A stretch of 64,000 nucleotides of DNA from Thermoplasmatota archaeon (GTDB taxonomy: Archaea; Thermoplasmatota; Thermoplasmata; Thermoplasmatales; Thermoplasmataceae): NCBI GenBank assembly GCA_023381355.1, contig JAMCUL010000008.1, positions 1 through 64,000 of the forward strand. Reading direction: 5' to 3'. The notes under the pieces are model-generated. The model ran no database searches. It was not told the origin of the DNA and saw nothing but the letters and a program-made list of their open reading frames with translations. Shown in pieces: positions 44,674 through 54,498 of this stretch; position 1 is the stretch's first letter; each line of letters begins with the position of its first letter. The position numbers were made by a program, and so were the translations under genes.

Positions 44674-45057
44674 TTAAAACAGTGAAAACACAAAATTCAT
44701 GATTAATCCAATGACTATGTAGAGAATTCCAACTCCAGCATAAATGACCGTCATTATTAGTTGTTCCCTGTTTATCTGTGTTATATCCCCTTCCCTCAGG
44801 GGAGCCTTTGCAATGAAAACATTTTCCAGATATTTGTTCGCACCAAAATCATAAAATGCACCGAAGAAGATTACACCTATGCCGAGAAGTACTAGCGCAA
44901 GAGGAAAAATATCTGCATATCCCCTCCGGTTTGCAATGTAAAGGAGTATTGATGCAAGAATCAGTGAAAGGAGGATCGCAAGAAGAGGGAGTGTAAGTAA
45001 GAATCTTGTTCTCCTGACCTCATCGATCCTTGTGGACCTGTCATCGTCCATTATCAT
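44674..45057 (-). CDS. Small membrane protein at the end of the peptide ABC operon
   Basis: A 127-residue protein with a charged N-terminus (MIMDDDRSTRIDEVRRTRFL) and four predicted membrane helices. Its ATG follows the stop of the ABC ATPase gene immediately, so it is translated with the transporter. No family is recognised. Its constant coupling to the transporter, if found elsewhere, would suggest an accessory subunit. The tRNA-Thr gene follows downstream on the same strand. Confidence 0.65.
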   Translation of the reverse strand: MIMDDDRSTRIDEVRRTRFLLTLPLLAILLSLILASILLYIANRRGYADIFPLALVLLGIGVIFFGAFYDFGANKYLENVFIAKAPLREGDITQINREQLIMTVIYAGVGILYIVIGLIMNFVFSLF

Positions 45058-47514: not shown

Positions 47515-49785
47515 TTATCTCCTCCTGAGTCTCGGGTTCACGACTTCATCCATCCCACGTGATACAAATATCAGCGAGAATATGAATGCGGAAAGTGCAA
47601 TCGCGGGTGGAATGATCCACTGCGGTTCAGTTATCAGGTAAAACTCATCCTTGAGAACTGCGTTTAGCATGCCTCCCCATGTCGCGGTATTCAGTGGAGC
47701 AAGACCGAGAAATTCAAGGCCAGATACTGCTCCAATACCGCCGCCAATGGACAGGGCAAGGAGATACAAGAGCAGGGGACCTATATTTGGAAGGATATGC
47801 CTCCTCATTATGGATGAATCCCTTGAACCGAATAATCTGGCAGCTTCCACAAAGGACCTTGATGAAACTCCCCTCACGACTCCAATCAGTGTAAACGCCG
47901 CAAACGGCCATCCAGTAAGGCTGACGATCAGAATCAGGTCAATGAAGTTGGCATTGCCTGGAATAACCGAAGAAAGAGCTATCAGAAGGGCCAGAGTCGG
48001 GACAAGAAAGAGGGCAAGAGACATTGTCTCTATGATCTGGCCACCTAGCCCTCCCTTATAACCAACGTACATGGCAACGGCGAGAGAAATAACTATGGAA
48101 AAGAATCCTATGGTTATTCCGAAGATCCAGTCGTTGTAAAAGCTCTGCAGAAATCTTGACCAGAGATCGGCCTTCGTATAGAAAGTGGTGCCAAAGGGAT
48201 AGGACTGACCTGTTGGGGTCTTGATCATGGGAGGCAGAGGTGCATAAGATGAAGCAGTTGAGCTGATGACATAAACATAACCCGCACTTGTGGTAAAGGC
48301 AATTGCACCCTTTCCTGTATTGCTGTTTGAGAAGTACAGTATTGAGGACACGTTTGTTGGAGTAGGTGAGACAGTATAACTCCACAGGAACGCAGTAGCA
48401 GATGAGTTCGCTGAGTCGTTGAACGAGATAGCAACACCTTTCTGGGCCACAAATATAAGCGAGTTTGTTACAGCATCATAAACACCATGAGTCAACACCC
48501 TTCCTGAAATTGAGGAGGAAAATGGAACTTCATAGAAATCATACTTTCCCTGGGTTAAGTTGTAAGCAAGTATCTGGAAATAGTTTGCTGACATTCCTAT
48601 TATATATGTAGGTGGTCCGTATAATCCCTGGCTTGTTGAAATAGAATATGTAACATATGGGAACTTATAGATGAGGCCTGGCCTTCCAGTCTCGATGTTA
48701 ATAGCATAAACATCATGATTGTTGGAAATAAGATATACTGAATTATTGGTATTAAGTGAAACCTGGTAAAATGATGGAACAATGAGACCATTCTGCGTGT
48801 TTATGTTAGTGAAATTGTCTTCCCACATAAGCGTTCCATTGAATGATGAATATGATACAACCGATGTATCATTATATATCAGGATTCTGGAATAATTCTC
48901 CGCCTTATTAGAAAGTAGCTGCTTGCCATAGAATTTTACTCCTGAAATATGTTTCATGCCTATTTTGAAGGAAAGATAGTGTGAAAGTGGAAACACCCCA
49001 AACTCATTCATGTATATGCCAGTTGCATTTTGGGTAATGACGTATATCTGTCCATTAGGAAAACCTGCCACACTGTTAAAACAGTATTCAGGCATTGGAG
49101 TACTTGGAGTGCTGTCAAAGGCGATTGCATTGGAGGTTATGTTGCCTATTATTGTTCCGTTTAATTTCTCGTTGTAAAGGAATACAAAATGAGGTGATGA
49201 ATACCCTTCAGATCTGTATTCGATCTCACCCACGGTGAAAGAATTGTTTGTATAGGGAAGCACCACGAATCTATGTATAACCACATCACTGCCCTGCGAC
49301 GTATTTAGAATTTTCCCGTTTATCAGATCGAAAATCAATGGTTGAAGCATCCTTTCTCCTTTTACGGCAAAATTGGAACTGTAAATATTCCCAACAGATC
49401 CAAGTGGAGTTCCCGGTTCTCCAAGACCCACGTAATATATCGATCCGTCTGTGCTCCCAACGTAAATTGCTCCAGTATAACCTTCACCTGCTACAGAGGA
49501 TGACATTGGTCCATAGAAGATTCCGCCACTGCTGTGGGTCTGATTATACAGACTTACATTTGCGATCGGGCTTGCGAGAGTTGAATCAATCGCAGGTGCT
49601 GATGTATAATAACCCACATTTCCACCAACAAATGGTGCTATCATCGAAACAATTGCGAATGCGAGGAGGATGTAAAACCCTGCCCTTCCGTATTTGCTCT
49701 TGTAGAATATTGTGAACTGCTTATACAGCCTTTTCCAGTATACAGGAGGGTTAATTATAGCATATTTATTTTTTTTATTAATCAT
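47515..49785 (-). CDS. DppC-type permease with a large beta-propeller-like extracellular insert
   Basis: A 756-residue permease. After a cytoplasmic N-terminus and helix 1 (YILLAFAIVSMIAPFVGG, near residue 40), residues about 56-535 form an outward domain rich in Ser, Thr, Asn and aromatic strands, with PQQ-like repeats (AIYVGSTDGSIYYVGLG, VYAINIETGRPGLIYKF, SAGYVYVISS). The normal DppC part resumes at YPFGTTFYTKADLWSRFL, with five more helices and the EAA loop EAARLFGSRDSSIMRRHILPN. Usual DppC proteins have a loop of only about 50 residues there. The propeller may hold peptides or the binding protein outside the cell (inference). Confidence 0.88.
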   Translation of the reverse strand: MINKKNKYAIINPPVYWKRLYKQFTIFYKSKYGRAGFYILLAFAIVSMIAPFVGGNVGYYTSAPAIDSTLASPIANVSLYNQTHSSGGIFYGPMSSSVAGEGYTGAIYVGSTDGSIYYVGLGEPGTPLGSVGNIYSSNFAVKGERMLQPLIFDLINGKILNTSQGSDVVIHRFVVLPYTNNSFTVGEIEYRSEGYSSPHFVFLYNEKLNGTIIGNITSNAIAFDSTPSTPMPEYCFNSVAGFPNGQIYVITQNATGIYMNEFGVFPLSHYLSFKIGMKHISGVKFYGKQLLSNKAENYSRILIYNDTSVVSYSSFNGTLMWEDNFTNINTQNGLIVPSFYQVSLNTNNSVYLISNNHDVYAINIETGRPGLIYKFPYVTYSISTSQGLYGPPTYIIGMSANYFQILAYNLTQGKYDFYEVPFSSSISGRVLTHGVYDAVTNSLIFVAQKGVAISFNDSANSSATAFLWSYTVSPTPTNVSSILYFSNSNTGKGAIAFTTSAGYVYVISSTASSYAPLPPMIKTPTGQSYPFGTTFYTKADLWSRFLQSFYNDWIFGITIGFFSIVISLAVAMYVGYKGGLGGQIIETMSLALFLVPTLALLIALSSVIPGNANFIDLILIVSLTGWPFAAFTLIGVVRGVSSRSFVEAARLFGSRDSSIMRRHILPNIGPLLLYLLALSIGGGIGAVSGLEFLGLAPLNTATWGGMLNAVLKDEFYLITEPQWIIPPAIALSAFIFSLIFVSRGMDEVVNPRLRRR

Positions 49786-50844: not shown

Positions 50845-53800
50845 TTATGCTGCCTTATTCTTCTTTTTGTAGAACATGAAGTAGTATGCAGCTCCAGCAA
50901 CCACAACAACAGCAACAACAAGCCCGGCTATTACTATAAGATCATAGTTGCTTGATGGAGTAACGAAATTGGCAAGGCTTATTGTTGGCTGTATTGTGAA
51001 GTTATTTATTGAAGTGTTGTGCGGATTTATTGTTGCTGTAACAGTAGTGTTCTTCAGTGCTCCAAGCAGCGAAGTGGATGAAAGATCGCCTTGGTTTACG
51101 GTAAAGTTAAAGACAGCCAGTCCTGCTGAATTCGTGTTTGTGCTGAGAGAGGCAAAGCTAACTCCAACCAAAGAAGTTGTGTTCAACGTGACAGTGGCTC
51201 CGCTGTATGCTGTTCCGTTGTAAGTAACATTGAACACAATCTGTCCATGTCCAGTACTGTAATCCAGATTTTTGAAAGAGTATGTTGACTTCAAGATTGG
51301 TCCGTTTATGATTGATAGATCAGTTGATCCAAAGCCGGGTCCGGTTTCAGTTGCATGAGGCTGTGAAGCAGATGCCACGATTTCCATTGTTTCATTATGC
51401 ACATAATATGTAGCATTAGTTGTTGAATTTGTCCCTGTGAAGAGTGCGCTAAGATATGAATTAGTCTTAAACTCCCATATGGCCTGTCCCGCTGAGTTTG
51501 TTGTTAGCTGGTTAGGAGTTATGTTCACAAGACCCCCATAGGTGGATGAATCGCCTATGAACAGAGTTACCCCGCTTGCAGGTGATGTGCCGTTCATTAC
51601 TGTAAAGGTTATATTTCCGTATTCATCGCCGTTGAAAGTGTTTCCATATGTCAGGGACTGGGAAACTGTAAGATTGTATTTATCAACAACATGTACCACA
51701 GAGCTGTTCTTGTATATTGTTGTGTACTCCCAGAACCAGTACAGGTAAGTAGCGGCTGAGTACGTGGTTGAATAGTTTGAGAATGCATTTGACAGAGGTA
51801 TTAGATCTGTTGCGTATCCTGTTGCTATTACTGGGTCCTGCTCAATTATGAGTGAATCCAGCCTCTTTGCAACCTGGGATGCCACTGCAAAACTGTCCGT
51901 GCTTATTGATTCGTTTATGAGAGTGCAGTAGAGTTGCTGTACCTGTGAGCCGGTAAGCATCTTGCCATTAACTTCCATGGAGGAGAATGGTCCAAGGTAG
52001 CTTTTATCCGGTATTCCGACGATTGGAGACAGGTGAGCCAGGCAGTCCAGAATTGGATTGCTAAGTGCAGTGCTCTCTCCTTCGGAGGCTATATCGAATT
52101 CGTTGTTCTTATGATGGCTCAATATGGTATTATCCACATTGGATTGCAAGGTTGTGAAAGCTTCCTGCTTGAGAACCGTTTTTATTCCAAGCTCATTCCA
52201 GTACTGGAATGTCTTCTCTATTGCCGCAACTCCTGTTGGATTTTCAGCACCAGTCGTTATCTGAACTGTCAGAGTAACCTGGGCTCCATTGTACATCAAC
52301 TGTCCAGATGAGGAATAGGTCATCCCTGGGATGCTGTCGATGAGTGACTTGGCTTTTGCCATGTTAAAGGTGTATTCAGGAGCACTGGCATTGTAATACA
52401 AGGTGTTACCGGGGTTTATCGGGCTTGATGAGGGATATCCAAGACCATCCAGAATAACCTGATTTATGTAGTTGTATGGAACCGCGTATGAAAGTGCCTG
52501 CCTGAACGCAGTGATGTTAAGTGGAGTTACTGCGGTATTCAATTCCCAGTATCCGTATGCACTTGACAGCTTTTTGTATATGAAGCTGTTTGGAGTAGCG
52601 CTCAACTGTGGGAGGAAGTTCGGTGGTGGTGCAAGTGTCATTGTGTCAATTTCACCCTTCTGGAATGCAGCAACCTCGGACGAGACAGAATCATATATTG
52701 GCATGTAAATTTCGTAAATCTTTGGTGTAAATTGTCTCAACCCGCTTGATGCATTGGTGTATTGCGTGAAGTAATATGGGTTTACATATAGAGTTTCGTG
52801 CTGACCTGTTATGATCTGGCCCTGAGGCATTCCAAAACCGTTCGTTACCATGAATGCACCTGCTCCAACCATGCCTGGAACTGCTCCAGTGGTTGGATTC
52901 CAGCCAAGGTTCCAACCGCAATATCCATAACCTGGAACTGCGGTATGAACGAATGGGCTTGAAGTATTGGACACATTGGTCCAGTTGAAATCTCCTACGC
53001 CAGTTGTTGTGTAGTCGTGATGTACCCATATGTGATATGGAATGATATCACAGGCGAGAACATCGGAAAAGAACAGAAGTGTTTTCTGGGTTACGAAAAA
53101 CTTCACTGAAAGATTTCCGTTTGGAACTACATTAACCACATTTGGGAAGTCACCGAAGTAGCTCTTTATCCTGTAGTTCAGAACAACATCGGCTGACTGA
53201 AGATAATACTTCTTCATGACGGTTGGCTTGTATGATTTGTAAGTATGGTTTACAAGCTGCCCATTATAGCAGAATTCTGTGTGGTTTGAGAAGACATATG
53301 TCTGGCTGTTGTTTGCAGGGGACCAGTCAGTCCATCTTACATATGGTCTTATATTGACTGTATAAACGTATGAATAGTTCTGGTAACTGTTTGTTGTTAT
53401 GTCGTATGTCTGACTTCCGGGTGCTGCTGTTGCTACGGTATATCCGCTGGCCATCCATGGAACATTTGTTCCGTTCGGAAGAGTTTCGAACAATGCTGTT
53501 GCACCCCATATCTGACAGTCAACGAATGCATCACAGTATGTCGTTTCATCAAAGGGACTCATTGATCCTGCGTTTCCTATCTGGCCTATCTTGAAAACTC
53601 CACCTGTATAGTGCGGCTCAGTCGTGGCATTATCGGTTGGATACAGCCATGGCGTTGAGCTGGATGCTTGAGACTGTACAAGGTCGTTGACCTTAAGATT
53701 AAGGCCACCTACATTAGCACTTAAAATATTCGTGCTTTTTGCATTTCCTGCTACTCCCGTCGCATTTCCCAGGACCGCAAATGCTGATCCTACCATGATC

Positions 53801-53850
53801 AGGGCTAGAAGCAAGGCTACCAAAATTCTTTTCTTGTTCATTGAATCCAT
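50845..53850 (-). CDS. Membrane-anchored peptide-binding protein with Ig-like domains
   Basis: A 1001-residue extracellular solute-binding protein (family 5). An N-terminal signal (RILVALLLALIMVGSAFAV) leads to the binding domain (about 80-700; PYHIWVHHDY, LSYAVPYNYINQVILDGLGY, VQITTGAENPTG). Two Ig-like beta domains follow (about 725-830 and 870-965; TTNSAGQAIWEF, TNTNSAGLAVFNF), then a C-terminal helix (LIVIAGLVVAVVVVAGAAYY) and a KKKNKAA tail that anchor it in the membrane. Many N-x-S/T sites could be glycosylated. The Ig-like stalk would lift the binding domain to the height of the propeller of the DppC partner (inference). First gene of the operon. Confidence 0.92.
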   Translation of the reverse strand: MDSMNKKRILVALLLALIMVGSAFAVLGNATGVAGNAKSTNILSANVGGLNLKVNDLVQSQASSSTPWLYPTDNATTEPHYTGGVFKIGQIGNAGSMSPFDETTYCDAFVDCQIWGATALFETLPNGTNVPWMASGYTVATAAPGSQTYDITTNSYQNYSYVYTVNIRPYVRWTDWSPANNSQTYVFSNHTEFCYNGQLVNHTYKSYKPTVMKKYYLQSADVVLNYRIKSYFGDFPNVVNVVPNGNLSVKFFVTQKTLLFFSDVLACDIIPYHIWVHHDYTTTGVGDFNWTNVSNTSSPFVHTAVPGYGYCGWNLGWNPTTGAVPGMVGAGAFMVTNGFGMPQGQIITGQHETLYVNPYYFTQYTNASSGLRQFTPKIYEIYMPIYDSVSSEVAAFQKGEIDTMTLAPPPNFLPQLSATPNSFIYKKLSSAYGYWELNTAVTPLNITAFRQALSYAVPYNYINQVILDGLGYPSSSPINPGNTLYYNASAPEYTFNMAKAKSLIDSIPGMTYSSSGQLMYNGAQVTLTVQITTGAENPTGVAAIEKTFQYWNELGIKTVLKQEAFTTLQSNVDNTILSHHKNNEFDIASEGESTALSNPILDCLAHLSPIVGIPDKSYLGPFSSMEVNGKMLTGSQVQQLYCTLINESISTDSFAVASQVAKRLDSLIIEQDPVIATGYATDLIPLSNAFSNYSTTYSAATYLYWFWEYTTIYKNSSVVHVVDKYNLTVSQSLTYGNTFNGDEYGNITFTVMNGTSPASGVTLFIGDSSTYGGLVNITPNQLTTNSAGQAIWEFKTNSYLSALFTGTNSTTNATYYVHNETMEIVASASQPHATETGPGFGSTDLSIINGPILKSTYSFKNLDYSTGHGQIVFNVTYNGTAYSGATVTLNTTSLVGVSFASLSTNTNSAGLAVFNFTVNQGDLSSTSLLGALKNTTVTATINPHNTSINNFTIQPTISLANFVTPSSNYDLIVIAGLVVAVVVVAGAAYYFMFYKKKNKAA

Positions 53851-54111: not shown

Positions 54112-54366
54112 TTATTCAGTGAGTCCAAGAACTATTGCCAGTTTCTTCAAAGCAAAGATTATGACCTGTAAAATAAGGGTAACTATTGAAAAGACAAAGG
54201 CAACGAACGCCATTGAGCCGTCAATTTGTATGGGTGAACCGAAAGCAGTCAGTTCCTTTGTCGTGATGGAGTTATAGATGTCCTGATATACTAGGTACAG
54301 CAATAAGGAAATAATTGCGTTTAGAGCCAAACCCAAGTAAGTTCGGTTAATCTTGATCTTAAACAT
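54112..54366 (-). CDS. Small membrane protein
   Basis: An 84-residue protein (MFKIKINRTYLGLALNAIIS start) with two predicted helices separated by a DIYNSITTKELTAFGSPIQI loop. The frame extends upstream to 54447, but the ATG at 54366 has a TTTTATTA box about 28 nt upstream on the minus strand and starts next to the first helix. No family is recognised. Divergent from hutU. Confidence 0.55.
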   Translation of the reverse strand: MFKIKINRTYLGLALNAIISLLLYLVYQDIYNSITTKELTAFGSPIQIDGSMAFVAFVFSIVTLILQVIIFALKKLAIVLGLTE

Positions 54367-54498
54367 TAGTTGGATGTAAACTAAATTCATGTAATAAAAT
54401 TTTTCCATGATATAAAGGCCAATATGAATTTTTTTTGAAAAAACCAAAATTCGGTTGATTTAAAATATGAAAAGATTGTTAAACCCATTTTCATTATT

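Follow-up and report, generated by a model that had tools for sequence, protein, structure and literature searches.

A predicted extracellular beta-propeller inserted in a peptide-importer permease of Thermoplasmatales archaea

The usual picture of a type I importer is that of a compact permease served by a separate binding protein, to which large ectodomains such as MalF-P2 of the maltose transporter are exceptions; MalF-P2 is inserted elsewhere in the helix order than the domain reported here and has a fold other than a propeller. In the DppC/OppC family of peptide permeases, the loop that follows helix 1 is extracellular. A segment of the P2 region, which comprises residues 91-271 of MalF, directly contacts MalE (PMC3150292). 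We analysed a 64,000-nucleotide stretch of an archaeal contig (hereafter the window) that encodes an importer with the same subunits, EAA loop and two ATPase sites as the oligo- and dipeptide ABC importers (OppABCDF, DppABCDF; M. tuberculosis OppABCD, PDB 8j5q-8j5t), but which differs from them in carrying, on the first extracellular loop of one permease subunit, a predicted propeller about 465 residues long, in the fusion of its ATPases, in the long C-terminally anchored tail of its binding protein and in an extra small membrane protein (Table 1). Like MalF-P2, the insert is a large extracytoplasmic domain within one permease subunit; its position after helix 1 and its predicted fold are different, and no homology is claimed. 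The parts are of known kinds, and in the open-access papers searched no propeller-bearing peptide permease and no account of their combination was found.

Table 1. Features of the importer operon and of its permease, in window coordinates.
Feature	Position	Strand	Basis
Small membrane protein, 127 residues, predicted to have three helices; final gene of the operon	44674..45057	-	Hydropathy
Double ATPase, DppD and DppF fused in a single chain, 817 aa	45059..47512	-	Nucleotide-site motifs; two oligo_HPY stretches
DppC/OppC-type permease with extracellular propeller insert (predicted), 756 aa	47515..49785	-	Single ATG-to-TAA frame; BPD_transp_1
Permease transmembrane core, residues 521-756, resuming at PFGT	47518..48225	-	Identity to orthologues
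Extracellular beta-propeller insert (predicted), residues 56-520, about 465 residues	48226..49620	-	AF2 model; Foldseek; homologues; sequons
Most conserved insert loop, (I/V)P-x-x-Y-Q, residues 336-341	48763..48780	-	37 divergent inserts
Transmembrane helix 1, permease residues 31-54, OppC_N-like	49624..49695	-	Hydropathy and AF2 model
DppB-type permease, ordinary size, 328 aa	49807..50793	-	BPD_transp_1, 113 bits
Family-5 solute-binding protein, 1001 aa; signal helix, long tail, C-terminal anchor 971-989	50845..53850	-	SBP_bac_5, 116 bits; hydropathy

The five minus-strand genes follow one another in the order binding protein, DppB, propeller-bearing DppC, ATPase and small protein, with gaps of 51, 21, 2 and 1 bases, and the same five-gene set recurs across the order at loci with a homologous insert (type A). 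The preliminary description of this locus had proposed a fused double ATPase and a membrane-anchored binding protein, and both proposals stand: the single ATPase chain carries two Walker A motifs (residues 51 and 485), two LSGG motifs (242 and 628) and two Walker B motifs (262 and 649), and hydropathy places a helix at the C-terminus of the binding protein. For its Ig-like tail on the binding protein, the window protein gave no Pfam match and homologues gave weak Big_1 matches, and its extra 'four-helix' gene is predicted to encode three helices. The small three-helix protein matched nothing in NCBIfam and nothing above cut-off in Pfam; at almost every insert-A locus of sufficient length, the gene that immediately follows the fused ATPase encodes a homologue of it. 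A small conserved hydrophobic protein is encoded on the operon strand just upstream of the binding-protein gene (window 54112-54447, minus strand), and its counterpart at another locus, also upstream of the binding-protein gene, is on the strand opposite to the operon (L068:4997-5257, minus strand).

The transmembrane part of the permease is of the DppC/OppC type. BPD_transp_1 scores 66.1 bits on residues 568-755 (Pfam cut-off 26.4), the EAA coupling loop (VEAARLFGSRDSSIMRRHILPN) starts at about residue 646/647, and the core matches M. tuberculosis OppC both in sequence (Rv1282c, E 2.4e-14) and, as a model, in Foldseek (E about 1e-8). On helix 1, OppC_N reaches 12.2 bits against a cut-off of 23.9 in the window protein, and 26.4 and 26.7 bits in the orthologues from G020 and G072. 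Hydropathy and the AF2 model agree that the first extracellular loop is not short, holding about 465 extra residues, and that the next membrane helix begins at about residues 541-554. The reading of the gene as an intact permease with an insert between helix 1 and the resumption at PFGT was thus borne out; a short first extracellular loop is the usual trait of DppC/OppC proteins, and the family does not require it.

The insert is rich in S, T, N, Y and G and has no membrane helix by hydropathy. An AF2 model built from 14 orthologues gave a compact, nearly all-strand domain at residues 69-514 with pLDDT mostly between 70 and 93, and comparison of the insert with the PDB by Foldseek returned BamB (E about 1e-8; TM 0.63-0.68, normalised to BamB) as well as WD40-type propellers. 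The predicted fold is a beta-propeller, whose approximately 29 modelled strands would be compatible with seven or eight blades. BamB and the PQQ-like propellers are the best interpretable structural match, although BamB is a free lipoprotein whereas the window propeller is embedded in a membrane transporter, and sequence scores for PQQ_2 are weak: on the window insert they remain below cut-off (E=0.03-0.1; 14.5 bits against 27.6), and some homologues give 0.0035 for PQQ_2 and 3.8e-05 for Beta-prop_ACSF4. The insert contains 16 N-X-S/T sequons where shuffling predicts 7.6 (p 0.0006), and the remainder of the permease contains none; together with the topology of helix 1, this sequon distribution points to an insert that faces the outside.

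Of 117 genomes of the order, 38 carry a homologous type-A insert that matches at E 1e-24 or better, a count that leaves out four weaker partial matches; single-contig genomes are included, and the frames are intact in nearly all copies. Two genomes from another family of the class also carry the propeller-permease architecture. In a scan of GTDB species, the insert-covering matches among those listed all belong to Thermoplasmata, with the exception of one 3-kb contig labelled 'bacterium'. All 33 insert-A proteins form one clade in the permease-core tree (100/100), and the insert-less paralogues of the order, unlike the propeller permease, have fewer than 100 residues ahead of the core match. 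Among orthologues, identity to the window protein is 22-77% for the insert (22-38% once close relatives are set aside) and 47-96% for the permease core, suggesting that the insert has diverged fast while its fold was kept. An origin of the insert as an assembly join or gene-fusion artefact, to which a split copy of the permease in the I-plasma metagenome might lend colour, has virtually no chance of being right given dozens of genomes with intact frames, single-contig ones among them, and a coherent tree. The I-plasma copy itself (L073 and L101, G030:C4) consists of a 454-aa and a 333-aa frame that overlap, possibly through a frameshift, a sequencing error or a real split. Long DppC frames from Chloroflexota, Actinomycetota and Pseudomonadota (L116, L131, L132, L133, L145, L150 and L157) were rejected as run-on GC-rich frames rather than inserts.

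These results bear on the remaining points of the preliminary description. The compact domain that it expected from structure prediction was obtained, and the search of DppC homologues that it named ruled out an assembly join of two genes. Its recurring PQQ-like units are supported at the level of the fold, through the BamB match, but not as membership of the PQQ_2 family. Model, topology, conservation and gene order agree with its proposal of an extracellular module added to a type I peptide importer, and equally with that of a specialised importer, which the conservation of the operon bears out. Its proposed function, peptide capture or docking of the binding protein, draws indirect support from the giant binding proteins of insert-bearing operons and from the modest excess of shared evolutionary rate, both described below.

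A second insert type, 470-550 residues long, occupies the same site as type A in another 20 genomes of the order from four families (loci L061-L067 and L182-L201; Aciduliprofundum-like genomes and other families of the order), one of which is presumably Aciduliprofundum boonei. Its model (pLDDT 80.7, pTM 0.85) also matches propellers, dipeptidyl peptidase IV among many, and the two types share the flanks AP..D and LPP..LGTD; at the second-type loci, however, the ATPases are separate and the small membrane gene was not found. Homology of the two types is not claimed: core against core, the comparison gave E about 0.02, and the whole-profile alignment at E about 1e-8 used a global option and included the shared flanks. 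Insert-less Thermoplasmatales paralogues fall between the two insert clades in the permease-core tree, for which long-branch warnings were raised, so that either one gain followed by loss or two gains would be possible.

Further extracellular additions were observed among related permeases. A third DppC class, 619-673 aa in length, is present in three f5 genomes (L177, L179 and L180 in G028, G032 and G035); its insert spans about 350 residues and bears PQQ-like motifs, and an additional ectodomain at the N-terminus lengthens the DppB partners (542-546 aa) by about 200 residues. Beside the second insert type, two DppB proteins of 496-594 aa (L062:6938-8425 and L065:9411-11192) have a first extracellular loop that is longer by about 150-250 residues. 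Smaller extra loops were seen in DppC at L176:5365-6792 (about 190 residues) and in a Thaumarchaeota genome at L121:6083-7681 (about 240 residues), and a Thermoplasmata DppC at L103:5906-7687 gains its outside module in another way, through a PKD-like ectodomain at the N-terminus and one more membrane helix.

Binding proteins were compared between operons with and without the insert. Wherever one was found, insert-bearing operons encode binding proteins of 872-1729 aa, whereas in 11 of 13 insert-less operons from the same genomes the binding protein measures 528-684 aa (Fisher P 3e-8 for 27 versus 13 loci, in a test that ignores kinship). The other two insert-less operons have long binding proteins of 968 and 1178 aa, so that a long tail can occur without the propeller, and the association, though strong, has exceptions. 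Several of the short binding proteins are also C-terminally anchored, and anchoring is thus not specific to insert-bearing operons. The 1729-aa binding protein (L076:13784-18970) shows weak NHL/propeller and Big_1 matches in its tail. Evolutionary rates of the insert covary with those of the binding-protein core at a partial r of 0.30 after removal of the permease and ATPase signal, compared with correlations of 0.35 for the permease, 0.31 for DppB and -0.01 for the binding-protein tail; the excess shared with the binding-protein core is modest and no stronger than that with the permease subunits.

By analogy with MalF-P2, we propose, at roughly even chances, that the propeller serves the tethered binding protein as a docking platform. 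On this reading, the first extracellular loop of a DppC subunit has gained a BamB-like propeller about 465 residues long; rigid and placed above the outer mouth, the propeller would hold the tethered binding protein during docking and peptide hand-over, a role functionally comparable to that of MalF P2 in contacting MalE. The fixed operon with a giant tethered binding protein and the rate variation shared with the binding-protein core speak for it. Against it stand the two long binding proteins of insert-less operons, a rate correlation that is no stronger than with the permease subunits and is absent for the tail, the fast divergence of the insert and the small number of invariant residues on its surface.

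Alternatively, the propeller might capture or filter peptides above the pore, the permease then sharing in substrate selection as when a prolyl oligopeptidase-type propeller gates access. The predicted location of the insert at the outer mouth would suit such a role, as would the resemblance of the second insert type to dipeptidyl peptidase IV, although this is one of many propeller families matched. Conservation within the insert can be read both ways: P337 is present in 37/37 and Y340 in 95% of the divergent inserts (n=37), making the (I/V)PxxYQ loop the best candidate functional surface, one that could line a face, but conserved positions are mostly P, G and W, with no conserved charged or catalytic cluster. 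Since a dedicated family-5 binding protein is moreover co-encoded in the great majority of loci, we regard capture by the propeller as unlikely. We judge the same of a glycosylated spacer or shield that would make no specific partner contacts and would protect the outer mouth in very acidic surroundings or lift the docking site through the surface glycan layer. The sequon enrichment and the fast divergence of a conserved fold agree with it, as does the finding that these archaea have N-glycosylated surface proteins and no S-layer (PMC12448462); against it, the propeller is absent from other peptide permeases in the same genomes, and a mere spacer would not need a near-invariant loop.

It is very improbable that the propeller couples protein digestion to uptake by recruiting a further surface protein, for example an extracellular acid protease or the small membrane protein of the operon. 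Propellers are common protein-docking scaffolds, and the host archaea scavenge peptides and secrete acid proteases (PMC5155288), but at the insert-A loci compared the conserved operon showed no protease gene, and the small operon protein is nearly all membrane helices.

The propeller operon can be tentatively placed in a cultured organism with published expression data. In genome G010, which we take to be Cuniculiplasma divulgatum S5, the gene order is GAPDH, RadA, three small genes and then the propeller operon, the GAPDH and RadA ORFs being assigned by eye. GAPDH is CSP5_0332 in C. divulgatum, and CSP5_0340, a PepT-family ABC transporter ATPase, is reported from the proteome of actively growing C. 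divulgatum (PMC7285479). Counting along the gene order from GAPDH as CSP5_0332, the operon ATPase would be CSP5_0340 and the propeller permease CSP5_0339.

A broader and rather doubtful reading would set the Thermoplasmatales importers apart as their own kind of type I ABC importer. A propeller carried by the permease, gained in at least two separate events, and a stalked, tethered binding protein would together make a permanent antechamber outside the pore, where peptides are selected and fed into it. A predicted propeller head recurs on one permease subunit across an acid-loving, peptide-eating archaeal lineage, with giant tethered binding proteins as its apparent partners. The genes of the operon are apparently present in cultured organisms (Cuniculiplasma, Ferroplasma and Thermoplasma), and these importers would offer a testable case of substrate hand-over without a periplasm or S-layer.
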